A DNA stretch of 64,000 nt from Pseudoramibacter alactolyticus ATCC 23263. Lineage in GTDB: Bacteria > Bacillota > Clostridia > Eubacteriales > Eubacteriaceae. Both the position numbers and the translations under genes were made by a program. Below are positions 9,564-57,690 of this stretch, piece by piece. The notes below the pieces were generated by a model that was given only the letters and a program-made list of their open reading frames with translations, was not told the origin of the DNA and made no database searches. Positions within the stretch are counted from its first letter, which is position 1. Each line of letters opens with the position of its first letter. The stretch spans positions 2,173,484 through 2,237,483 of the forward strand of contig NZ_GL622359.1 in NCBI RefSeq assembly GCF_000185505.1, in the 5' to 3' direction.

Positions 9564-9810
9564 AATATAAACCCCCTATGTTTATAATATATGAATTTAT
9601 TTAACGCGCATGCGCGGTTAAATCACGGTGACGGAAGACGCATCGGAAGCCTTGCGGCGATGGAGAAATGGGTCGAAATGTCCGCGTCCGAATGGTGAAA
9701 AGCGTTCATAAAAAAAGGACAGTACTCAAATAATACAACGCGTCGTTGTTGGTACGGCCCTACTCCATTTCCTCCTGCCAGATTATGAAAGACATCCTCC
9801 GTCTTTTTTG
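9564..9810 (-). promoter_or_regulatory. Long glpK 5' leader
   Basis: About 250 bases between the likely transcription start and glpK with no gene. It holds an AAAGAC/GTCTTT hairpin, a run of seven U (plus-strand A7 near 9710-9716) after a GTAC-containing stem, and a near-perfect inverted repeat TTAACCGCGCATGCGCGTTAA (9601-9621 region). It may be a GlpP-controlled leader. I cannot show which hairpin is the terminator. Confidence 0.4.
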
Positions 9811-9817
9811 TATTCCC

Positions 9818-9846
9818 ATCATATCACATTTAAAAAAGTGTGTAAA
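9818..9846 (-). promoter_or_regulatory. Promoter of the glpK operon
   Basis: On the minus strand TTTACA (9841-9846) and TATGAT (9818-9823) are separated by exactly 17 bases. This is the best promoter in the long gap between the divergent glpK and dhaK genes. Confidence 0.65.
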
Positions 9847-41935: not shown

Positions 41936-41974
41936 TTGGGCAAGCAATGAAAAGCGGCGGCGAATGAAAGATAT

Positions 41975-42012
41975 TTCCCCTTTACTGAACTATCAGTAAA
42001 GGGGATTTTTTA
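41975..42012 (+). terminator. Terminator after dnaJ
   Basis: CCCCTTTACTGA (41977-41988) and TCAGTAAAGGGG (41993-42004) form a 12-bp stem, followed by a T run. Confidence 0.9.
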
Positions 42013-42228
42013 TGCCCGATAGTTATGAACTTAGGATTGAACGCATTGAATAGTAGTGAACAATAAAAATGGTCGGAGACATCAAGCAGGATAAAGGAAA
42101 ACGACTTTCATCAGATTCACGAGTGGGTCAGCGTCGGCGGCGTCTGATATCATAATAGAACAAAATACGATGATGGATGCGCATGTTATAATCATTAAGG
42201 TTTTTAAGAAAGATCCGTCATAAAATTA
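42013..42228. other. Gap without a recognised gene
   Basis: Between the dnaJ terminator and the decayed tracrRNA-like copy. Base composition drops toward AT-rich. I see no convincing gene, promoter or repeat. Confidence 0.5.
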
Positions 42229-42335
42229 AAAAAGATCGGATCAATCAGGCCTTAATTCGCGCCATGCGATCAATTGGCCTATCGGGGAATCCTTATTGGA
42301 ACGCATTTTGTTATTGACGATGCTTGTTTAAGAAT
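42229..42335 (-). ncRNA. Second, decayed tracrRNA-like sequence
   Basis: Counting by hand, bases 42255-42319 match the intact tracrRNA gene (44312-44376) at about 51 of 65 positions without gaps. The match covers the anti-repeat core (TTGTTATT), the nexus region (AATCCTTATT) and the hairpin (GCGATCAA). Beyond this, bases 42306-42332 match the CRISPR repeat itself at about 20 of 27 positions, including its 3' part, where the active tracrRNA no longer does. A T6 run (plus-strand A6 at 42230-42235) is kept, but the terminator stem is poor and no -35/-10 is evident. Likely a relic of a duplicated locus. Confidence 0.65.
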
Positions 42336-42595
42336 TTTGGAAGATCCTATAATGGATCCCGGAAATCGGAGCTATTCATCTTTGCGTTGCCCCTCCTTGA
42401 AGAGGATAGGCGTTGGGGATTTCGGTATTCCGATGCAAAAATGGTTAAGACCGACTTCTTTGGAGCAAGACCAGCGATCTGCGCCAAAAGCAGTCCCATC
42501 GAGATGACCTGCAAAGAAACTTAATCTGGCGGCATTAAAGGTAAATTTCGGCTTGAGATAGAAGGCTTAAATTTTAATAATCGAAAGAATAAATT
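42336..42595. other. Gap without a recognised gene
   Basis: Short overlapping plus-strand frames (up to 77 codons) run over this stretch, but they overlap the tracrRNA relic, lack ribosome sites and have no recognisable motif. Nothing is called. Confidence 0.45.
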
Positions 42596-43693
42596 ATGAA
42601 AAATCATGAAGGTATGAGCTACGATATCGTAATCGTTGGAGCGGGACCTGCAGGTTCTACATTTGCAAGAGAAATTGGCAATAGGGGATTAAAGGCTGCG
42701 ATCATAGATGGACAAAGCGTTTCTCCAAACAAACCTTGCGGCGGACTGTTGGCCCCTGATGCCCAAAAACTTATGGCGGGATACGACCTTGTGCTTCCCA
42801 AGGAAGTTTTGGCAGATCCACAGATTTTTTCAGTAAGAACGATCGATCTTGAGAAGAATATTGAGCGCTTTTATCAAAGATATTATCTTAATATGGATAG
42901 ACATCAGTTTGATGCCTATCTTCTGTCATTGGTTCCCGAAGAAGTTGAACGGATTAACGGAAGAGTGATGAAAATAACTAAAATGAAGGAAAGCCATCAG
43001 CGCAGGGAATCCGACGACGGAAGATTTAAATTTGATGTAATAACGGAAGGCGGAAAAGCGGCTACCCTTACTTCCAAATATGTGGTAGGCGCAGATGGGG
43101 CGGCTTCAGTGGTACGAAAATCATTTTATAAGATTCCTATATTACGATATATGGCCATTCAGCAGTGGTTTAAAATCGATATGCCTCCTAAAACATATTA
43201 TTCTTGTATATTTGACGAAAAGACAAGCGAAAGCTGCTCATGGACCATACACAAGAACGGCTATTTTATATATGGCGGCTGCTTTAAACCCAAGGGCTGC
43301 AGACCGGCATTTGAAACGCAGAAAAAAAGACTTTCAGCGTATTTGAACTACGATTTTGGTGAACCAATAATGACGGAAGCCTGTTTGGCGTGCAGACCGA
43401 GGCGCATGAAAGACTTTGTCACCGGAAAAGACGGCGCATGGTTAATTGGCGAGGCGGCAGGTTTTATCAGTGCCAGTTCATTGGAAGGAATTAGTTTCGC
43501 CATAAAGAGCGGAAGCATGCTTGCAGACGCTTTTAACCGAGGCAAAGGCTCCCGTGAAATAACGTCAATCTATAAGAAAAAGGCCCTTTCTTTAAAGTTA
43601 AAACTGTTGACCAAAGTGATTAAACATAAAGTGATATTCACCCCTTGGATTAGGAAAATAATCATGAAAAGCGGCATCCAATCGATAAAATAG
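42596..43693 (+). CDS. Geranylgeranyl-reductase-family FAD-dependent oxidoreductase
   Basis: A 365-residue flavoprotein. FAD site YDIVIVGAGPAGSTFAREIG is near residues 9-28. PCGGLLAP near 47 and VGADGAASVVRKSF near 160 are typical of the GGR/digeranylgeranyl-glycerophospholipid reductase group. GAWLIGEAAGFISASSLEGI is the second FAD-contact block. Substrates in this family are isoprenoid double bonds or aromatic hydroxylation targets. The actual one is unknown. The ribosome site is weak. It stands alone between the tracrRNA relic and an IS30 fragment, in AT-rich DNA, so it is probably cargo inserted next to the CRISPR locus. Confidence 0.78.
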   Translation: MKNHEGMSYDIVIVGAGPAGSTFAREIGNRGLKAAIIDGQSVSPNKPCGGLLAPDAQKLMAGYDLVLPKEVLADPQIFSVRTIDLEKNIERFYQRYYLNMDRHQFDAYLLSLVPEEVERINGRVMKITKMKESHQRRESDDGRFKFDVITEGGKAATLTSKYVVGADGAASVVRKSFYKIPILRYMAIQQWFKIDMPPKTYYSCIFDEKTSESCSWTIHKNGYFIYGGCFKPKGCRPAFETQKKRLSAYLNYDFGEPIMTEACLACRPRRMKDFVTGKDGAWLIGEAAGFISASSLEGISFAIKSGSMLADAFNRGKGSREITSIYKKKALSLKLKLLTKVIKHKVIFTPWIRKIIMKSGIQSIK

Positions 43694-43839
43694 GGTTGTC
43701 TTTGAGTCCGCCTATTTAAAGCGTGCCGGCGTGCACAATGACCGGAATAAAGGCGATGCTGCGAAATCGGTTTTTGTCCTTTGCCAGTTGATTGCAAGGG
43801 ACTTTTTTTATTTGGCGAATGGCCAAGCCAATGCCAGGG

Positions 43840-43998
43840 CTTTGAATCGTACACTTCGCATGGAATTTTATGACCAGGGCATTTGCGATGTCGACGGTTC
43901 AGTTGATCGAATGCCTTTTGGATGTATTCATCTGGAATGTTTGTGAGATCTTTCCCTTTTGGAAAATACTTTAACCCATTGACTGACGTTTTCGTTGA
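43840..43998 (-). pseudogene. IS30-family transposase remnant
   Basis: About 50 codons on the minus strand resemble the C-terminal end of IS30-type transposases: VNGLKYFPKGKDLTNI, then DQLNRRHRKCPGHKIPCEV, equivalent to the usual NGL-RQYFPKG and LN-RPRKCLGYKTP-EV. The rest of the frame on either side does not match, and no terminal repeats were found. It is a dead scrap of an insertion sequence between the flavoprotein gene and the tracrRNA gene. The flanks (43694-43839, 43999-44282) hold nothing else I recognise. Confidence 0.7.
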
Positions 43999-44282
43999 AA
44001 GCGCGTTTTGAATTTTCCTGATTTTAGGACGGCCTTTGCAAACACGATTGCAGCAGAAGGCCAGAGGTCGTTTTTTAGTTCTGGCAATCGTCTGTATATT
44101 CGGGATAAAGAAAACCATGCGATGGCTGCGGGGTTCAGCAAAGCTTAAACGGTAAACGGAAAACTGCGCTATTTTATGTTTTGACGGTTAAGAAAAAATA
44201 TTTTTCATAATATAAAAGAAACAATATAATGATTGATAAAAATGATATAATAATAAAGGTTTTCATAAAAGCGTATAAAGTG

Positions 44283-44376
44283 CATAAAAAAATCTGCATT
44301 AGCAGATCTTTATTCGCACAATGCGATCAACTGTGATGTCGGATAATCCTTATTTGAACTCACCTTGTTATTTACG
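44283..44376 (-). ncRNA. tracrRNA of the type II-A CRISPR system
   Basis: Transcribed away from cas9. Its 5' part can pair with the CRISPR repeat over a long stretch. The lower stem is UCAAAU with GUUUGA of the repeat. The bulge is GAGU opposite GA. The upper stem is CGUAAAUAACAAGGU with ACCUUGUUAUUUACG. This is the same stem-bulge-stem plan as in Streptococcus pyogenes Cas9 guides (GA opposite AAGU). The nexus follows (AAUAAGGAUUAUCCG), then a hairpin UCGCAUUGUGCGA and the terminator stem AUCUGC-AUUA-like loop-GCAGAU with U7. The plus-strand stretch 44352-44390 looks like a CRISPR repeat because it is the anti-repeat. Confidence 0.88.
44286..44307 (-). terminator. tracrRNA terminator
   Basis: ATCTGC (44292-44297) and GCAGAT (44302-44307) around a four-base loop, followed on the minus strand by seven T. 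Confidence 0.88.
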
Positions 44377-44381
44377 CATTA

Positions 44382-44411
44382 ATTTTAGCATATAAAATAA
44401 AAAGATGTCAA
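44382..44411 (-). promoter_or_regulatory. tracrRNA promoter
   Basis: On the minus strand, TTGACA (44406-44411) and TAAAAT (44382-44387) with 18 bases between. Predicted start near 44376. The -35 lies only 25 bases from the cas9 ATG. Confidence 0.7.
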
Positions 44412-44436
44412 TTAGAGATAGAAAGGAAAATTGAAA

Positions 44437-46197
44437 ATGACATACTATCTGGGGTTGGATATGGGAACGGGTTCTGTCGGCTGGGCCGCAACTGATAAAA
44501 ATTATAAATTGATTCGCGCGAAAGGGAAAGATCTTTGGGGCGTTCGCCTTTTTCAAACAGCGAAGACAGCAGCGGAAAGAAGGAGTCATCGTGTTGCAAG
44601 ACTGCGAAGACAGCGGGAGAAAGTGAGAATCGGGTATTTAAAAACTATTTTTTCCGATGCAATTAATAAAGTGGATCCCGGTTTTTTTCAACGTTTGGAT
44701 GACAGCTTCTTTTATGCGGAAGATAAAAATATCAATCAACCGTACGCTTTGTTTGCGGATACCGGATATACAGATGTGGATTATTACCGTGATTATCCAA
44801 CCATTTTCCATTTAAGAAGTACCTTGATTCATGATACATCGCCCAAAGATGTGCGACTGGTATATTTAGCCGTTCTCAATATGTTTAAACACCGAGGACA
44901 CTTTTTAGCATCTAATTTGTCGGAAAATGGTGTTGATGATTTTGGAGACATCTATCAGCAGTGGTGTAAATCTGTGCCGAAGCCTGTCCAGATATCGGAT
45001 CCCGAAGCGAAGACAGAAAAAATCGAAAATATTCTTTCCAAGGCTGGCATTTCCAATACCAGGCGGTTGGAAGCACTCTTAGAAGTCTTTGGTATCAAGA
45101 GAAGAGATGCTTTTGCAGAAGTTTTAAAGCTGTGGTGCGGTCTCAAAGGGAACCTCAGTAAAATTTGGTCAGAGACTGATTTTAGTGATTTGGACAACAC
45201 AAAACCAGCATTGTCATTTAAAGACAGTAATTTAGATATGGTTTTGTCCCAATTAGAAGAAATTCTTCCAGACGAAGATTATTCATGGTTAATGCTAACA
45301 AAACAGATTTATGATTGGTCTCTATTGTCTGGAATGATGAAAGATGCAAGTGGCAAAAGTTATGATTATCTGTCGGATGCGCGGGTTGCGTCCTATCAAA
45401 AGCATTCGGAAGATTTAAAAACACTGAAACGGTTTTATCATGATAATCATTTATCTGCGGCTTACGATCAGATGTTTCGGGTCATGGGAAAAGATAATTA
45501 CAGTGCCTATGCGGGATCGGTTCAGTCAAAGAAGGAAGTCGTTCGTCGTGGTGCATCATGTGGCATCGAGGAACTTTATAAGCGAATAAAGAAAGATTTA
45601 AAACCGGTACCAGACTGCGAAACAAAACAAATCATTTTAGAAAATATTGAACGCGGAACTTTTTTGCCGAAACAGTTAACCCGAGATAATGGAGTTATTC
45701 CGAATCAGATCCATGTGCATGAGCTTAAAGCAATTTTAAAAAATGCAGAAAATTATTTGCCTTTTCTTAAAGAAGGCTCGGAACTAACGAATAGTGAAAA
45801 AATATTGCAGCTGTTTCAATTTCAAATTCCTTATTATGTTGGACCGCTCTATTCGGATGAAAATAATTATGCTTGGGTCGTTCGAAAAGAAGGGGGGCGT
45901 GTTTTTCCTTGGAATTTTGCTGAAAAAGTTGATGAAAAAGCTTCAGCGGAAGGTTTTATATCGGAATTGGTTGCCCGTTGTACTTATTTAGATAATGAAA
46001 AAGTACTGCCTAAGGCATCTTTGCTTTATGAAAAATTTATGGTCCTTAATGAACTCAATAATTTAAGGATAAATGGTGAGCGCATTTCGGTCGATATTAA
46101 ACAGGAACTTTATCAAAATTTGTTTACACGCGGCAAAAAAGTGACCCTCAAAAAAAGTGAGGGATTATTTGGTGGCCAAAGGATATTTTGCCTCTGA
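44437..46197 (+). CDS. cas9: Cas9, N-terminal part (gene split by frameshift)
   Basis: The N-terminal part of a type II-A Cas9. It has RuvC-I YYLGLDMGTGSVGWA with catalytic Asp at residue 8, then the Arg-rich bridge helix (RRSHRVARLRRQREKVRIGY near 50-70) and the recognition lobe. The true start is ATG 44437, with AGGAA 9 bases upstream. At about codon 571 an A7 tract (46150-46156) throws the frame off, and translation ends 14 codons later at 46197. With six A the frame would continue into 46157-48484, making a protein of about 1348 residues, normal for type II-A. As written, Cas9 would not be made as one chain. Confidence 0.92.
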   Translation: MTYYLGLDMGTGSVGWAATDKNYKLIRAKGKDLWGVRLFQTAKTAAERRSHRVARLRRQREKVRIGYLKTIFSDAINKVDPGFFQRLDDSFFYAEDKNINQPYALFADTGYTDVDYYRDYPTIFHLRSTLIHDTSPKDVRLVYLAVLNMFKHRGHFLASNLSENGVDDFGDIYQQWCKSVPKPVQISDPEAKTEKIENILSKAGISNTRRLEALLEVFGIKRRDAFAEVLKLWCGLKGNLSKIWSETDFSDLDNTKPALSFKDSNLDMVLSQLEEILPDEDYSWLMLTKQIYDWSLLSGMMKDASGKSYDYLSDARVASYQKHSEDLKTLKRFYHDNHLSAAYDQMFRVMGKDNYSAYAGSVQSKKEVVRRGASCGIEELYKRIKKDLKPVPDCETKQIILENIERGTFLPKQLTRDNGVIPNQIHVHELKAILKNAENYLPFLKEGSELTNSEKILQLFQFQIPYYVGPLYSDENNYAWVVRKEGGRVFPWNFAEKVDEKASAEGFISELVARCTYLDNEKVLPKASLLYEKFMVLNELNNLRINGERISVDIKQELYQNLFTRGKKVTLKKSEGLFGGQRIFCL

Positions 46198-48484
46198 TGA
46201 AGAAATCGATTTTTCCGGCGTGGACGATGGATTTAAAAATACGTTGAGCAGCCACCAAAAGTTTAAGGAGATTTTTGATGTTGAAGTGCTGAATGATTGG
46301 CAGAAATCGATGTCAGAAAAAATTATTTTCTGGGCAACGGTGTACGGTGACTCGAAAAAGTTTTTAAAAGAGCGATTAGAAGATGCTTATGGCAATGAGC
46401 TTGATCAAAAGCAAATCAAACGTATTTTAGGCTTGCGATTCAAGGATTGGGGACGTTTATCAGAAGCCTTTTTAAATCTCGAGGGAAAAAATTCAAAAAC
46501 AAATCAGTCTCAAACGATTATAGAGGCGCTTTGGAATGGCGATGGGACAAACAATTTTAATTTGATGGAACTGCTTAGCAGCCAATTCACCTATCGAGAC
46601 ACGCTTAAAAAAAGAGCACTAAAAGGCGAAAAGACTTTAACGAATATTACCTATGAAGATCTGTCAGATCTCTATCTTTCACCATCCGTAAGAAGAATGG
46701 TGTGGCAGACAATTTTAATAGTCAAAGAATTACGGCAAGTATTGGGGGCCGGCCCTGCTAAAATTTTTATTGAAATGGCACGGGACGTCACGTTGAAAGC
46801 GGGCACTCGGACAACCAGCCGGCGTCAGCAATTACTTGATTTGTATAAAAATGTTCAAACGGAATCCAGAAATTGGGTGGAAGAAATTGAAACACAGGAA
46901 GAGAGCCGATTTCGCTCCAAAAAAATATTTTTGTATTATACTCAAATGGGCCAATGCATGTATACGGGTGAACCGATCGTTTTTAAGGACTTGTTTAATC
47001 GGAATCTGTATGATATCGATCATATTTATCCCCGACACTTTGTAAAAGATGATAGCTTGATCAATAACTTAGTGTTAGTTAAAAAACAAGCTAACAGCCA
47101 TAAAAGTGATACCTTTCCCATTGAAAACAGCATTCAGCAAGCGCGTCGCGATTTTTGGAAATGGTTATCGGAAAAGGGGCTGATATCTCGGGAAAAGTTC
47201 AATAGACTGACGCGGCGAACCAGCTTTTCAGACGAAGAACTGGCGGGTTTTATCAGCCGCCAAATAGTTGAAACACGTCAAGGAACGAAAGCCGTTGCCC
47301 AGATTTTTGAGAATGCCTTACCGGACAGTGAAGTTGTTTATGTGAAGGCGGGAAACGTCAGTGATTTCAGGCATCATTTTAATCTATTAAAATGCCGGGA
47401 AATTAACGATTTGCACCACGCGCAGGATGCTTATCTGAATGTGGTGGTGGGGAATGTATACCACACAAAATTCACGAAAAATCCGATTAATTTTATTAAA
47501 GGCTATCGAAAGGACCGCAAGGCATATGCTTATCATATGGATCAGATTTTTGATCACCCGGTAAAACGTAATGATATCATCGCCTGGCAGACCGATAAAA
47601 ATCAAAGCATTGCGACGGTTAAGAAGGTGATGGCCAAGGGGACCCCGCTGGTCACCCGGATGAGCTATGAAGAACACGGCGAGTTGTCGAATCAGAATAT
47701 TTGTAGCGCAAAAGCAGCCCAAAAAGCAGAAGGAAAAGGCTATTTACCCATCAAAAATTCGGAGCGGTTGTCAAATACGCAAAGATATGGCGGCTATAAT
47801 AAATATGCAGGCAGTTATTTTTTCCTGGTCGAGCATACTTTAAAAAAGAATCGGGTCAGAACGATTGAAACAATGCCCTTATTTTTGCGAGATACGATTA
47901 AAACTTCGAAAGACTTGTTGAAATATTGTTGCGAATCTTTAAAATTAGAAGCCCCCTCCATTCGCGTAATGAAAATAAAAATGGGTTCACTTTTAAGCGT
48001 CAATGGAGCTTTTGTGTATTTGACGGGAAGAAGTGGGAAGAAACTAATCACGCCTAATGGCTTTCAACTGATACTCCCTCAAAAATGGCAAGATTATATT
48101 CGATTATTGATTAAAACAAAAGATTCACCTGACGATGTAGAGGGAATAAGCGGGGGAAAAAATATCGAGTTCTATGATATTTTGGTGGAGAAGCATACAA
48201 AGACATGCTTAAAGAACAGACCTAATCCCATAGGGGAAAAATTACGAGAATGGCGGAACGATTTTATAGCTTTAGACAATCAGAAACAATCCGATATTTT
48301 GCTGGAAATTCTGAAATTGACAACATTCGACAATTCGGGTGCTGATTTGAGAGCGATTGGCGGGAAGAATCAATCAGGAGTGAGTACGATCGGTAAAAAA
48401 ATATCAAGTCAAAAATCCGTGGTGCTTGTTCATCGGTCTGTCACCGGAATTTTTGAAAAACAGGTGGATTTATTAAGCATATGA
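46157..48484 (+). CDS. cas9: Cas9, C-terminal part with RuvC-II, HNH, RuvC-III
   Basis: Continuation of Cas9 in the next frame. It opens DYLVAKGYFASDEEIDFSGV, matching the usual Cas9 linker after the REC lobe. RuvC-II is IFIEMARDV with its Glu (about residue 774 of the joined protein). HNH is DIDHIYPRHF with His near 857 and NNLVLV with its Asn. RuvC-III is HHAQDAYLNVVVGN with His and Asp near 990. The PAM-interacting end completes it. All catalytic residues are kept, so the break is recent or an error in the sequence. Its stop overlaps the cas1 ATG. Confidence 0.92.
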   Translation: MRDYLVAKGYFASDEEIDFSGVDDGFKNTLSSHQKFKEIFDVEVLNDWQKSMSEKIIFWATVYGDSKKFLKERLEDAYGNELDQKQIKRILGLRFKDWGRLSEAFLNLEGKNSKTNQSQTIIEALWNGDGTNNFNLMELLSSQFTYRDTLKKRALKGEKTLTNITYEDLSDLYLSPSVRRMVWQTILIVKELRQVLGAGPAKIFIEMARDVTLKAGTRTTSRRQQLLDLYKNVQTESRNWVEEIETQEESRFRSKKIFLYYTQMGQCMYTGEPIVFKDLFNRNLYDIDHIYPRHFVKDDSLINNLVLVKKQANSHKSDTFPIENSIQQARRDFWKWLSEKGLISREKFNRLTRRTSFSDEELAGFISRQIVETRQGTKAVAQIFENALPDSEVVYVKAGNVSDFRHHFNLLKCREINDLHHAQDAYLNVVVGNVYHTKFTKNPINFIKGYRKDRKAYAYHMDQIFDHPVKRNDIIAWQTDKNQSIATVKKVMAKGTPLVTRMSYEEHGELSNQNICSAKAAQKAEGKGYLPIKNSERLSNTQRYGGYNKYAGSYFFLVEHTLKKNRVRTIETMPLFLRDTIKTSKDLLKYCCESLKLEAPSIRVMKIKMGSLLSVNGAFVYLTGRSGKKLITPNGFQLILPQKWQDYIRLLIKTKDSPDDVEGISGGKNIEFYDILVEKHTKTCLKNRPNPIGEKLREWRNDFIALDNQKQSDILLEILKLTTFDNSGADLRAIGGKNQSGVSTIGKKISSQKSVVLVHRSVTGIFEKQVDLLSI

Positions 48485-49380
48485 GTTGGCGAACCATTGT
48501 CATCACTAGTAATGCCAAATTGGACTATCAAATGGGTTATTTAGTGGTGAGAAGTCAGAAAACGACAAAAATATTATTGTCAGAAATCGGCACCCTGGTC
48601 GTGGAGAGCACAGCGGTTTCCATGACGGCTTATCTTTTGAGCGAGTTGACCAAGCACAAAGTTAACGTCATTTTTTGCGACGAAAAGCGCAATCCGTCAT
48701 CGACCTTGCAAGCATTTTATGGCTGTCATGATACCAGTGAAAAAATTCGCAAACAAATCAAATGGACAGATTATATCAAGTCAGCCGTATGGACAGAAAT
48801 CGTCACGGAAAAGATCAGAAAACAAGCAGCATTACTGAATGCGCTTGAAAAACCGGAAGCCAAAATACTCAAAGGCTATGTCGGTCAGGTGACATTAAAG
48901 GACGCAACGAATCGGGAAGGGCACGCCGCAAAAGTATATTTCAACGCATTATTTGGGAAAAAGTTTACCCGTTCGTTGGAGTGTTCGATTAATGCTGCAT
49001 TGAATTATGGTTATACACTTATTTTATCCGCTGTTTGCAGGGAGATCGTGTCGAATGGCTACATGACACAAATTGGCTTATGGCATGACAACATGTTCAA
49101 TCCCTATAATTTGGGTTCTGATTTGATGGAGCCTTTCCGACCATTGGTGGACCACGAAGTGTATAATATGCAGCCTCAACAATTTGAAAAGAATGAAAAA
49201 CACAAAATGCTGGATTTATTAAATCATACCGTACAAATAGATCGCCGCGATGTATTTTTGGGAAATGCAATTAAAATTTACGTTAAATCGGTGTTCGATG
49301 CCATTAATGATAAGGATATTGCCCTGATTAGGTTTTACAAAGATGAGTTATCGTTTTATGCGCGTGATCATTTTATTTGA
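48481..49380 (+). CDS. cas1: Cas1, CRISPR integrase subunit
   Basis: A 299-residue Cas1 of the type II group. The N-terminal beta part has [20 protein letters not shown], and the helical catalytic domain has [20 protein letters not shown] and [20 protein letters not shown] with the metal-binding His and Glu/Asp residues. With Cas2 it inserts new spacers at the leader end of the array. Type II-A adaptation also needs Csn2 and Cas9. ATG overlaps the cas9 stop, and the end overlaps cas2. Confidence 0.95.
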
Positions 49381-49663
49381 TTTACCAACGACCACGGCTG
49401 CTGATCGGCGAGATTATGCACAATTTCGAAAATTTTTAATTAAAAACGGTTTTTTTATGATGCAGGAAAGTGTGTATTGCAAATTGGCCCGGAATACGCC
49501 GGCGGCAAATGCCATTATTGAGGGAGTGCGCAAGCATAAACCCACCTCAGGATTAGTGCAGGCCATGAAAGTAACAGAGAAGCAGTATGCCGCAATGGAA
49601 TATATTGTAGGATCCAGCTCAAGCGAGGTGCTTAACACAGATGAACGATTGGTATTTTTATGA
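49358..49663 (+). CDS. cas2: Cas2, CRISPR adaptation subunit
   Basis: A 101-residue Cas2 (106 if the ATG at 49343 is used). [20 protein letters not shown] carries the first strand and the acidic residue of the ferredoxin-like fold, and [20 protein letters not shown] follows. It forms the central dimer of the Cas1-Cas2 integrase. Start 49358 is preferred by homology of the first strand, with GATGAG upstream. Either start overlaps the end of cas1. It overlaps csn2 by four bases (ATGA). Confidence 0.93.
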
Positions 49664-50337
49664 TTTTAGTGAATGAAAAATATGATTTAAAAATAGAGAT
49701 GCGGGAAAATAGATCATGCTGCCTTGTTGTGGAAAAACCCGAATACCTGGCAGATATGATGATGGATTTAATCGCACAAAGCCAAGGAGATGAAGGCGGT
49801 TTTGTGCTATCGGATCATGGCAGCCTTTTGCCAATAAAACATTATTTGGATTTGCAAACAGATATTTTTCATTTGGATTTAAATCAGCGCAAAGTGATGA
49901 AGGGGATCTATGCCGCATTAGAAGAGGTAGCTCAAGAAGAAGTTGAAGCCAAAGGTGAAATTACAACTGCGATTATTTCTGTATTGGAGCGGGTCACCAG
50001 CCGTGCGGCTTATGATAATCTGACATTTGATTTTGATTTTGAATGGGAAAATTTATTTAAATTTTTTCATCTCCGCATTGAGGAACAATCGTTATCTTTA
50101 GAAGAGAAACTTGCAGAGTATTTTAAAATCCTTTCTTTAGTCCTTCGGAAGCCGATCTTATGTTTGCTTCATGCACATATCTATTTTTCAGAAAAGCAAA
50201 TCCGTGAATTGATTCAACTGAGCAAATATCAAAAACTTCAGTTGTTATTTATTGAAGCACGGGAACCTAAAAAAATTCCGGATGAAGATGAAGATATTTA
50301 TATCTTAGATCAGGATCGGTGTGTTATTATTAAATAA
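49660..50337 (+). CDS. csn2: Csn2, type II-A adaptation protein
   Basis: A 225-residue Csn2. It defines the locus as type II-A. The predicted fold is the Csn2 alpha/beta head with a helical leg. [20 protein letters not shown] starts it, and the acidic [20 protein letters not shown] segment lies in the central helices. The C terminus [12 protein letters not shown] is a characteristic strand. Csn2 forms ring-shaped tetramers that thread DNA ends and support spacer capture. Last cas gene; the leader begins right after it. Confidence 0.85.
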
Positions 50338-50396
50338 AGAGATCGTGAATAAGCTGTTACCTGCAGTCATAAGGTTCGGTGAGAATCGATTTTGAG
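50338..50396 (+). promoter_or_regulatory. CRISPR leader
   Basis: Fifty-nine bases between csn2 and the first repeat. They end in ATTTTGAG (50389-50396) directly against the repeat, closely resembling the ATTTGAG leader-anchoring sequence that directs spacer insertion in streptococcal type II-A systems. Confidence 0.7.
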
Positions 50397-51165
50397 GTTT
50401 GAGAACCTTGTTATTTACGATACTTCTTTAGCTTCCTGGATCATGATGCACAGCGGATCGATGGTTTGAGAACCTTGTTATTTACGATACTTCTTTAGCG
50501 GCGCACCATGATACAAAAATATCACACCAGTTTGAGAACCTTGTTATTTACGATACTTCTTTAGCAAAATCATGGCTAAGTATAATTCATACACGCGTTT
50601 GAGAACCTTGTTATTTACGATACTTCTTTAGCAAATGAGAACCGTGGTAAACATAGACTCCGGTTTGAGAACCTTGTTATTTACGATACTTCTTTAGCTT
50701 TTCAGCGTCGCTGATATCCTCATTGGGCGTTTGAGAACCTTGTTATTTACGATACTTCTTTAGCAAAAGGTCTTTGAAATCATCAATAAGACATGGTTTG
50801 AGAACCTTGTTATTTACGATACTTCTTTAGCCCACATAACGGGCCTTATCTTCCGGCAACAGTTTGAGAACCTTGTTATTTACGATACTTCTTTAGCGTA
50901 CATGCGCCACGAAGAAGTGAAACAAGAGTTTGAGAACCTTGTTATTTACGATACTTCTTTAGCCAAGGGATCCGCGGCTGCGGCGTGCCCCGGGCGTTTG
51001 AGAACCTTGTTATTTACGATACTTCTTTAGCCCTGACACCCACAAGCGAGCTTGAAAGCTTCAGTTTGAGAACCTTGTTATTTACGATACTTCTTTAGCG
51101 ATGGCCAGTGTTTTAACCGGCACCTGCCGGTTTGAGAACCTTGTTATTTACGGTACTTTTTTGAC
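50397..51165 (+). CRISPR. Type II-A CRISPR array, 12 repeats and 11 spacers
   Basis: Repeats are 36 bases, starting GTTTGAGAACCTTG and ending CTTCTTTAGC. Starts: 50397, 50464, 50530, 50597, 50663, 50729, 50796, 50862, 50928, 50996, 51064 and 51130. The first eleven are identical. The twelfth changes ACGATACTTCTTTAGC to ACGGTACTTTTTTGAC and marks the old, distal end. Spacers are 30-32 bases and all different. The leader lies on the csn2 side, so transcription runs on the plus strand, consistent with pairing to the minus-strand tracrRNA. The repeat is AT-rich while many spacers are GC-rich. Confidence 0.98.
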
Positions 51166-51249
51166 ATAAGAAATATTTATTTGATGATATGTTGTATTGT
51201 ACTTGTAAAACGGATCAAAACCCGCCCTGCGAAAAAATTTAAATTTTGC

Positions 51250-51278
51250 TTGATGCCCGCTCGATTCTTTGCTATAAT
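51250..51278 (+). promoter_or_regulatory. tRNA-Gly promoter
   Basis: TTGATG (51250-51255) and TATAAT (51273-51278) with 17 bases between, 13 bases upstream of the tRNA. Confidence 0.75.
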
Positions 51279-51291
51279 CGTTCGTGTTCAA

Positions 51292-51365
51292 GCGGGTATA
51301 GCTCAGTGGTAGAGCCCTGGCTTCCCAAGCCAGTCGCGAGAGTTCGATTCTCTTTACCCGCTCCA
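51292..51365 (+). tRNA. tRNA-Gly (anticodon CCC)
   Basis: The acceptor stem GCGGGTA/TACCCGC, D arm GCTC-AGTGGTA-GAGC, anticodon stem CTGGC/GCCAG with loop TTCCCAA, and T loop TTCGATT all fit. CCA is encoded. The anticodon reads CCC, for glycine GGG codons. Confidence 0.95.
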
Positions 51366-51379
51366 TTTTCTGAAATTTG

Positions 51380-51417
51380 AAACCCGCATTTGTTGTAAGG
51401 CTTTGCGGGTTTTTAAT
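51380..51417 (+). terminator. Terminator after tRNA-Gly
   Basis: AAACCCGCA and TGCGGGTTT with a T run. Confidence 0.8.
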
Positions 51418-51654
51418 TTATACAGATTGTGCATTTGCTGGCAATAAATATAAATTATTTTAAAAAGATAATTTTTATCATTATTTACAATCTTTTTTTC
51501 AAATAATTTGTTTTTAACTTCCGAGTTCAATAAAAAATCAGGATCATGTCTCAAATCCCGAAGTATAATCTTTAACAAAGGGAGCCTTAAAGGGCTTTTT
51601 TATGTGTAGTGCTATCTTATTATTTTATCATCATCTGCGTGACATACGAAAAAA

Positions 51655-51671
51655 TTATCGTTTTTCGATAA
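51655..51671. promoter_or_regulatory. Inverted repeat upstream of the DUF2975 gene
   Basis: TTATCG, five T, CGATAA. A possible operator for the XRE regulator encoded in the same unit. No clear -35/-10 was found beside it. Confidence 0.4.
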
Positions 51672-51726
51672 AATAATGATGATAATCGTTAAAATATATG
51701 CTATCATTAACAAAAGGGAGGCTCGT

Positions 51727-52329
51727 ATGAAAAAACGCAGGGGAAATGTTATCCGATATGAAACAATAGGGATTTGCATCAAAGCATTGACGTACGCACT
51801 TTTGATTGCATTGATAATAAAATTGCTTGTCGGAATTTGGATAATGACAAAATCGCAAAACAATTTTATGGTAAGAAAACAATTTAGATTAACAATGATA
51901 TTCTTGCCGCCTGTCTTTTCACAAAATTTGTTAGGCTATCTTTTCACTAAAAAAATCGATATTTATCCCAAGACGGTTTTTATAATTGCATATATGGCCC
52001 AGATTGTCCGAATAGGAATTCTTTTCTGCATCTGTCATTCGATTTCAAAATGTTTTGATAGAGTATTGAATAATGAGACGCCATTTTATTTGGGGAGCGA
52101 AAAGATGTTTTTTAATGTTGCCGTGCTTGTAGTTTGTTACTGGATAGTGCCGTTTCTAATTAAATATTTATCATTTTTTATAAGTGGATATATTAAAGGA
52201 TATGTGTACGTGGATGTAGGGAATAATCATTTAATATTCATTTTCATAATGATAATGTTACTGGGGTTTTTATTTAAAACACAAGAATTTGGGAAGTTTT
52301 TGCAAAATGAATCAGACGAAACGTTGTAA
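51727..52329 (+). CDS. DUF2975-like membrane protein
   Basis: A 200-residue membrane protein with four predicted helices, about 18-40, 58-75, 85-110 and 130-190 (the last region likely two). The helix arrangement and the small XRE regulator encoded right after are the hallmark of DUF2975 pairs in Firmicutes, whose function is not settled. ATG 51727 has GGGAGG upstream. The DNA is AT-rich, unlike the core genome. The pair may sense a membrane signal, with the regulator controlling the unit. Confidence 0.65.
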   Translation: MKKRRGNVIRYETIGICIKALTYALLIALIIKLLVGIWIMTKSQNNFMVRKQFRLTMIFLPPVFSQNLLGYLFTKKIDIYPKTVFIIAYMAQIVRIGILFCICHSISKCFDRVLNNETPFYLGSEKMFFNVAVLVVCYWIVPFLIKYLSFFISGYIKGYVYVDVGNNHLIFIFIMIMLLGFLFKTQEFGKFLQNESDETL

Positions 52330-52333
52330 ATAA

Positions 52334-52570
52334 ATGGGAATTGTTTTGAGATTAGACCGAATTATGGCGGATAGAAAGATTTCTCTATCGGAATTGTCAG
52401 AGAAGGTTGGCATTACCAATGTTAATCTCTCAAAAATCAAGACGGGAAAGGTAAAAGCAATTAGGTTTTCGACATTGGATGCTATTTGCAGAAGTTTGAA
52501 TTGTCAACCTGGGGATATTTTAGAATACCAAGATGACGAGGAAATAAAAAAAGGATCAGGAGGGAAATGA
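52334..52570 (+). CDS. XRE-family small transcription regulator
   Basis: A 78-residue helix-turn-helix protein (Cro/C1 HTH_26 type). It reads IMADRKISLSELSEKVGITN then VNLSKIKTGKVKAIRFSTLD and ends CQPGDILEYQDDEE, almost the entire family domain. It follows the DUF2975-like gene by four bases without a clear ribosome site of its own, suggesting coupled translation. It may bind the TTATCG/CGATAA repeat upstream of the pair. Confidence 0.85.
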   Translation: MGIVLRLDRIMADRKISLSELSEKVGITNVNLSKIKTGKVKAIRFSTLDAICRSLNCQPGDILEYQDDEEIKKGSGGK

Positions 52571-52571
52571 A

Positions 52572-52796
52572 ATGCAATGGATCAGCAATCCAGAGAAGAA
52601 AAATGTTATTTTTAGAGGACCTTCTTGGTGCCCTCGTATGGGCGCAGCATGCCGCGGTAATAATCCGCCTTTTTGTAGTATAAAAACATCACACTGCAAA
52701 AAATTACAGGCCTGTGCGATATATTTCCACGGCAAGCAGGAGAAGCAAATGGAATGGTTGAATCATCCAGTTCTCAAGGTCTCGCATCCATTGTAA
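52572..52796 (+). CDS. Small Cys-rich protein
   Basis: A 74-residue protein. Cys residues at 20, 27, 35, 42 and 48 (WCPRMGAACRGNNPPFC, SHC, QAC) could bind a metal or form disulfides. No signal peptide is seen. AGGAGGG lies 8 bases before ATG. It is the third gene of the DUF2975-XRE unit. I do not recognise the family. It could instead be a chance frame, but the ribosome site and spacing argue for a gene. Confidence 0.5.
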   Translation: MQWISNPEKKNVIFRGPSWCPRMGAACRGNNPPFCSIKTSHCKKLQACAIYFHGKQEKQMEWLNHPVLKVSHPL

Positions 52797-52853
52797 AGCT
52801 ACAAATAAATTATTTTAAAATTTATTATATACTTTATCATAAGGGAAAAATTT

Positions 52854-52958
52854 ATGGCATGGAATGTTTTAATTCAAAAAAGGGACAAAATTATTATTGT
52901 GGTAACATATGATGATTCTATATATCCATTTTTTGATGAGATAATAAAATCAAAATAA
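52854..52958 (+). CDS. 34-residue open frame before the flippase gene
   Basis: ATG behind AAGGGAAAA. The peptide starts MAWNVLIQKRDKIIIVVTYD and ends IIKSK. It may be a tiny leader peptide or the leftover start of a lost gene. No family is recognised. Confidence 0.3.
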   Translation: MAWNVLIQKRDKIIIVVTYDDSIYPFFDEIIKSK

Positions 52959-52995
52959 AATGAAAAAAACAAAAAACAAAAAGTGGGATTCAAAC

Positions 52996-54468
52996 ATGGG
53001 CAAAGGATCCATAAAAAGAAATTTTCTGCTGAACAGCCTTTTGACGATTTCGTCTTTTATTTTCCCGATGATCACGTTCCCATATATTTCTCGGATATTG
53101 TTACCGGCGGCCATCGGCAGGGTCAGTTTCGCCACGTCCTTAGTGACGTATTTTAATTTGATAGCGCAGCTGGGGATTCCGACCTACGGCATTCGGGCTT
53201 GCGCTCAGGTTCGCGATGATAAATTGAAATTAACGCGGGTTGTTCAGGAGCTTTTGACGATCAATTTGCTGATGAGCGGGCTGGTGTATCTTTTATTTTT
53301 CGGGTTGCTGATTTTGGTGCCGCAGCTACAGGACGATCGAACGCTTTATTTGGTCATGGGTTCAGCCATTTTATTTAACGCGCTTGGAATCGACTGGATG
53401 TATCAAGGATTGGAGCAATATGCCTACATCACAAAGCGGTCGATCCTCTTTAAATTTCTCGCCCTCATCATGATGTTCGCTTTCATTCATCAGCCGAAAG
53501 ATTATATTATTTATGGCGGCATTTCCATTTTTGCCGCTTCCGCTTCAAATATTTTGAATTTTATCAATGCGCGGAAATTCATAGCGATGCAGTACGTCGG
53601 CGGGTATCGATTCAAAAGGCATTTTAAAGCGATCGGCATCTTTTTTGCCATGTCGTGCGCGACGATTATTTATACCAATTTAGATACGATAATGCTTAAA
53701 TGGCTGACGACCAATACCGACGTCGGCTATTATAATACGGCGGTAAAAGTCAAGACCATTTTGGTGGGCGTCGTGACTTCTTTGGGCGCCGTTTTATTGC
53801 CCCGGGCATCTTATTACGTTGGAAATCACATGCTAGAAGATTTTCGCCGGGTTAGTAAAAAGGCCATTAATTTCGTTATGGTTTTTGCCGCGCCCGTCAG
53901 TCTTTATTTTATTCTTTTTGCAAAACCGAGCATTTATTTAGTGTCGAGCGGCGCTTTTGCCGGTGCGATTAAGCCGATGCAAATCATTATGCCGACGGTG
54001 ATGCTGATTGGCATCACCAATATTCTGGGAATTCAAATATTGGTGCCCCTGGGGCGGCAAAAGACCGTCATGTGGTCAGAGATAGCCGGCGCAGGCGTGG
54101 ATTTTCTGGTCAATTGGCTTCTCATTCCCAAGTATGCATCGGCCGGCGCGGCATTCGGAACCCTGCTGGCAGAAATCGTTGTTTTAATCGTACAATTTGT
54201 TTCGCTGCGCCGCGAAATTAAATTGATGGTTCGGCAGATATATTTTGGAAAAATAGGTTTGGCGTTGCTGGCCGGCTGTATTTTTTCTTTTTGGATCTTG
54301 AAGATTAGCCCGATCTTTACCGCGCATTTTGGCAACATCGTGGGAAATCTTATCGTTCTGGCCCTATCCGTCAGTCTGTTTTTTGCTGGGTACGTCATGA
54401 TCCTTTTGTATTACAGAGAGCCGATGACCCTCTATATCAAGGACCAGATCACGGGCTTTCTGCCCTGA
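52996..54468 (+). CDS. Wzx/RfbX-type polysaccharide flippase (MOP superfamily)
   Basis: A 490-residue membrane protein with 12-14 helices. KRNFLLNSLLTISSFIFPMI then TFPYISRILLPAAIGRVSFA is the typical N terminus of Wzx flippases, which move lipid-linked sugar repeats across the membrane. IYTNLDTIMLKWLTTNTDVG is another family block. ATG 52996 is preferred (GTGGGA upstream); an earlier ATG at 52960 adds 12 Lys-rich residues. No glycosyltransferase genes are nearby, so it is an isolated flippase. AT-rich start, more normal composition later. Confidence 0.85.
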   Translation: MGKGSIKRNFLLNSLLTISSFIFPMITFPYISRILLPAAIGRVSFATSLVTYFNLIAQLGIPTYGIRACAQVRDDKLKLTRVVQELLTINLLMSGLVYLLFFGLLILVPQLQDDRTLYLVMGSAILFNALGIDWMYQGLEQYAYITKRSILFKFLALIMMFAFIHQPKDYIIYGGISIFAASASNILNFINARKFIAMQYVGGYRFKRHFKAIGIFFAMSCATIIYTNLDTIMLKWLTTNTDVGYYNTAVKVKTILVGVVTSLGAVLLPRASYYVGNHMLEDFRRVSKKAINFVMVFAAPVSLYFILFAKPSIYLVSSGAFAGAIKPMQIIMPTVMLIGITNILGIQILVPLGRQKTVMWSEIAGAGVDFLVNWLLIPKYASAGAAFGTLLAEIVVLIVQFVSLRREIKLMVRQIYFGKIGLALLAGCIFSFWILKISPIFTAHFGNIVGNLIVLALSVSLFFAGYVMILLYYREPMTLYIKDQITGFLP

Positions 54469-54590
54469 TTGGTCCTGGCTGGGAAAACCGACAGAGCTTG
54501 CCTTACAACTTTAACGGCTCAAAAAATTGATTTTTTTGTGCGGAGTCTGCCGGCGTAGGCGGGAGGCGATCGGCGGCTTCAAAATAGTTA

Positions 54591-57514: not shown

Positions 57515-57690
57515 ATGGAAAGATAGAGGCGCGTTTTTTAAGAGTATGCGGGGTGATCGCGGCAGGGCGAAGGGATCACCGCGGAAAGGAAAAGACGCCG
57601 AAGTGTCATCTGCCTGCTGTGGTGATTGCTGGGTCCGTCGAGAACATCGCCGGGACTGTCGCCGTCAGGCGGGGGGCTGTCAAATACAAA
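57515..57690 (+). promoter_or_regulatory. Lysine riboswitch (L box)
   Basis: The conserved lysine-binding core is plain. It has GATAGAGGCGCG (57522-57533), AAGAGTA (57540-57546), a GAAAGG turn, GCCGAAGTG (57597-57605), GCTGGGTC (57628-57635) and GGGACTGTC (57652-57660), in the correct order and spacing. It sits in front of asd-dapA-dapB-dapH-lysC and should shut the operon off when lysine is abundant, through the terminator at 57715-57741. Confidence 0.92.

Follow-up and report, generated by a model that had tools for sequence, protein, structure and literature searches.

The sequence at positions 42229-42335 of the window (the whole stretch of DNA analysed, 64,000 nucleotides long) is a decayed second copy of the tracrRNA gene of the adjacent CRISPR-Cas9 locus and of DNA neighbouring it, and no new function is needed to account for it. 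This relic corresponds to the active tracrRNA region at 44285-44391. The sequence-only reading had counted 51 identical bases out of 65 without gaps, a count that is exact (42255-42319), and the relationship it proposed held when the two segments were aligned with gaps: the local score was 70, against 17.7 ± 2.4 (maximum 31) for 2000 dinucleotide shuffles. We also searched with a covariance model, R1, built from 24 tracrRNAs (that of the active gene, that of genome G003 and 22 from related Cas9 loci) from which the relic was left out. R1 scored the relic at 31.3 bits at 42256-42318 on the minus strand (E 2.1e-6 over 1.4 Mb, 3.5e-6 in the genome); the active gene scored 72.3 bits, and these were the only two matches in a genome-wide search. 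Because the element is short, AT-rich DNA that resembles a tracrRNA by chance might be suspected; however, the alignment score of 70 (highest shuffle score 31), the R1 E-value of 2e-6 and the score of the adjoining flank, reached in 0/1000 shuffles, leave this explanation with a practically negligible probability.

The tracrRNA body of the relic is damaged at several points. The nexus and hairpin 2 are present with one pair lost in each (the third pair in the nexus), and the stem of the Rho-independent terminator, strong in the active gene, is broken. No TTGACA promoter was called for the relic on the minus strand near 42320-42360. The duplex with the CRISPR repeat was computed at -13.2 kcal/mol for the relic versus -25.6 kcal/mol for the active gene over the same span, and at -19.4 versus -30.3 kcal/mol over the long span; relative to shuffled sequence, the core fold of the relic had a z of -0.56, no better than the shuffles themselves, and that of the active gene -2.62. 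Fourteen changes separate the relic from the active gene, seven of them in 30 columns that do not vary among relatives and seven in 33 that do. This 7:7 ratio of invariant to variable substitutions compares with 15:399 when 25 relatives are pooled (Fisher p 9e-7, a value that is overstated because the pooled relatives are not independent, in a test that rests on 63 columns). Taken singly, 24 of the relatives have 0-2 changes in invariant columns, and the remaining one (L042, of G002) has 5/31 plus 15 variable changes. An even spread of substitutions over invariant and variable columns is the pattern of neutral drift. Judged by sequence, the relic is evolving without purifying selection, although the non-independence of the relatives calls for caution here. 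Together with the homology of the copied flank, this bears out the earlier description of a decayed second tracrRNA.

The homologous block extends further than had been noted, from about 42147 to 42335 and from 44206 to 44391, or ~190 bp, and takes in about 75 bp past the tracrRNA terminator that are common to both copies and to none of six relatives compared. The flanks of the two copies aligned with a score of 30.5, compared with 11.1 ± 2.5 for shuffles; flank homology in G002 and G003 (same genus), L035, L037, L038 and L043 was at chance level. Since no other sequence in the comparison has this flank, the two copies most likely split within the present lineage, and the earlier suggestion of a duplication of the locus gains support from the same observation. 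On the cas9 side, the similarity ends at the anti-repeat, short of both the promoter and the cas9 start of the active locus. The extended -10 element in the copied flank may represent a cas promoter.

The active type II-A locus lies beside the relic (Table 1). A promoter of similar arrangement, with TTGAC-like and TGnTAnnnT-like elements, is found beside the anti-repeat in relatives. The cas9 gene is split at 46120-46230 into overlapping frames of 588 and 775 aa around the A7 run, which may reflect a genuine frameshift or an error in sequencing. The genome holds one Cas9 gene and one array, and a search of it for a second of either found none. There were no further arrays with the present repeat in the genomes of the genus, and no self-targeting guide was found.

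Table 1. Coordinates of the two tracrRNA copies, the active locus and tracrRNA matches in related genomes (window positions unless another sequence is named).
Feature	Coordinates	Strand	Evidence
Relic copied flank, with extended -10 TGTTATAAT on + at 42184-42192	42147..42228	.	flank alignment
Relic tracrRNA body: anti-repeat core, nexus, second hairpin, broken terminator	42229..42318	-	R1 match, gapped alignment
Relic anti-repeat	42297..42332	-	+ strand 22/36 identical to CRISPR repeat, last 13 bases 9/13
FAD-binding protein gene (PRK11445 family), between the copies	42596..43693	+	
Active tracrRNA flank, homologous to 42147-42228, with TGATATAAT at 44243-44251 (+)	44206..44284	.	flank alignment
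Active tracrRNA gene, perfect terminator hairpin	44285..44375	-	R1 72.3 bits
Active tracrRNA promoter: TTGACA, 18 nt, TGcTAAAAT	44382..44411	-	
cas9 (type II-A), frameshifted near A7 run at about 46150	44438..48484	+	TIGR01865 over both halves
cas1, cas2, csn2	48481..50337	+	
CRISPR array, 12 repeats GTTTGAGAACCTTGTTATTTACGATACTTCTTTAGC, last degenerate	50397..51166	+	
G484 tracrRNA match	L184:5807-5867		
G551 tracrRNA match	L185:11077-11137		
G174 tracrRNA match	L187:7508-7578		

A flavoprotein gene and an IS30 scrap had been reported between the copies. The former is clear (NF008519, E 2e-119); the latter resembles the C-terminus of an IS30 transposase (43694-44118, minus strand), but the match is weak: 30 aa align to the terminal part of the IS30 profile (E 0.011). 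No convincing remnant of cas9, cas1, cas2 or csn2, and no convincing extra repeat, was found between dnaJ and the active tracrRNA. The order dnaJ then pgi is seen in G001-G004; here it is broken, and pgi lies elsewhere. Directly after dnaJ, the segment 41964-42041 recurs at seven places in G004, of the same genus, and at the one of these places that was scanned (L021) a helix-turn-helix transposase domain then follows; the segment is probably an insertion sequence end. The locus has a G+C content of about 35-44% between segments of 49% and 58%, and the low-GC stretch runs from dnaJ to the 58% G+C DNA (41936-54500). A lysine riboswitch lies at 57516-57687 (Rfam RF00168, 87.2 bits). A phage was considered as the source of the tracrRNA and gave no match, and a 40-bp match of the relic region in G001 had no other tracrRNA feature on reading.

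We compared both anti-repeats with the CRISPR repeat. The sequence-only reading had found 20/27 matches between the relic and the 3′ part of the repeat, which is right, and had stated that the active tracrRNA has lost similarity to the 3′ half, which is wrong as counted: the active gene also matches at 20/27 when those 27 columns are counted, and over the whole 36-nt repeat each copy matches at 22 positions. The two do differ over the last 13 bases, where the relic matches nine and the active gene six. In the 12 comparable 3′ columns the relic agrees with the repeat at eight (chance about 0.003), whereas 18 functional tracrRNAs, among them the active one, agree with their own repeats at 2-6. 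The proposal that the relic reflects an older or longer tracrRNA found no support, as relatives have a short anti-repeat with the promoter at the position of the 3′ half; the functional tracrRNAs compared are all of the short form, and a longer ancestral form is therefore unlikely.

In samples of 61, 391 (genomes of the class) and 396 genomes (the family of G085), which partly overlap, two R1 matches occurred in the present genome only. At one related locus, L040, there is a second weak R1 match (9770-9821, 23.7 bits) at the expected position of cas9. Four genomes, G003, G174, G484 and G577, have a tracrRNA match with no Cas9 detected, and in G551 Cas9 is present as an N-terminal fragment only. 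The G003 tracrRNA (L031:8881-8942, 67.9 bits) is well preserved and lies between housekeeping genes; neither Cas9 nor matching repeats were detected in this genome. The usual promoter beside the anti-repeat is absent from the G003 and G484 orphans. In G577 (L186:9917-10242) the tracrRNA, a leader end and two abutting repeats are kept, and no cas genes were found. With four related genomes in this state, the loss of type II-A systems seems to end repeatedly in an orphan tracrRNA.

We consider it likely that the relic is a dead pseudogene that arose by duplication of the 5′ end of the locus within this lineage. The tracrRNA gene of the organism's own type II-A locus and the DNA past its terminator, possibly with the cas promoter, would have been duplicated, the cas genes of the extra copy would have been lost or never copied, and the copy would then have drifted neutrally. 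The active gene would be the parental one, the duplication may have covered the whole locus or its 5′ end only, and the insertion sequence remnants may have had some role in the rearrangement; no cas gene remnants or duplication junctions of the extra copy were found. A different history, in which the relic is left from an earlier, independently acquired type II-A locus that the present one replaced, would fit the insertion sequence remnants and low-GC stretch around the locus and the broken dnaJ-pgi order. However, the flank matches the active copy and 0/6 relatives, as expected of recently split copies, and we hold this history to be unlikely. The replacement of an earlier cas9, as had been suggested, is possible to that extent, although the searches turned up neither a second cas9 or array nor the remains of a cas gene. 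The relic could also be an excision scar. Because the anti-repeat points the same way on the + strand as the CRISPR repeats, these elements form direct repeats on either side of the cas operon. Were they to recombine, the cas genes would be excised, and what stayed behind would be a promoter-less tracrRNA joined in register to the 3′ half of a repeat. That homology to the active gene stops on the promoter side of the anti-repeat, that the relic exceeds the 18 functional genes in its match to the 3′ half, and that the G003 and G484 orphans likewise have no usual promoter are all consistent with such an event. However, across the final 27 columns of the repeat the two copies match to the same degree, nothing recognisable as a spacer, a second repeat or an array flank follows the relic, and G577 has lost its cas genes yet keeps the leader end and repeats, so other routes of deletion exist. 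We regard excision as possible, if rather unlikely; it could also be the deletion step after a duplication, in which case it refines rather than excludes the duplication explanation. A homology of the cas9-side flank of the relic to the array flank, leader or array was not clearly above chance. A broader proposal treats type II-A cas operons that have a divergent tracrRNA as excisable cassettes: anti-repeat/repeat recombination would remove the cas genes and leave promoter-less tracrRNA-repeat hybrids, of which the relic and perhaps the G003 and G484 orphans would be examples. This proposal is speculative and distinctly improbable.

A working regulatory RNA would have precedents. The long tracrRNA tracr-L guides Cas9 to Pcas by means of an extended 5′ guide that matches Pcas beside a PAM (PMC11417352), and scaRNAs, described as bounded by a transcription start site and a terminator, are also known (PMC6199352); the relic could accordingly silence the cas promoter as a trans-acting tracr-L or, given the extended -10 on the + strand, be a scaRNA. 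Like tracr-L, the relic lies near the cas promoter and departs from the usual short tracrRNA form, but it differs in having no long promoter, no Pcas-matching guide and no constraint (PMC11417352). Like a scaRNA, it is a repeat-like small element outside the array and near cas9, but no terminator was called on the + strand in 42005-43987 (PMC6199352). No minus-strand promoter was called. Guide matches of at least 9 nt from the relic to 44150-44437 were absent, which disposes of a long tracr-L guide aimed at the cas promoter, as were matches of 12 nt to the array or the cas operon. The long regulatory tracrRNA form that the sequence-only reading had raised is thus unsupported, and we judge a regulatory role of either kind to be very improbable.

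Returning to the pseudogene, comparable cases are known in mollicutes. Spiroplasma syrphidicola EA1 resembles the present genome in having, besides a type II system, a second tracrRNA without cas genes, a putative one that belongs to a cas-less second CRISPR locus (PMC6882279); however, an array is present there, whereas no second array was found here and the extra tracrRNA has decayed. Degraded type II CRISPR-Cas loci also occur in mollicutes (PMC6882279), with type II parts partially lost as in the present case, although here the extra copy survives as a tracrRNA 5′ block only, with a nearly complete locus beside it.

We conclude that the relic is a neat but ordinary fossil left by duplication and gene loss, and as such a record of type II-A loci coming apart. 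The orphan tracrRNA genes of G003, G174, G484 and G577 could mark past possession of CRISPR-Cas9, and they warn that a tracrRNA-like match is not evidence of a second working system.
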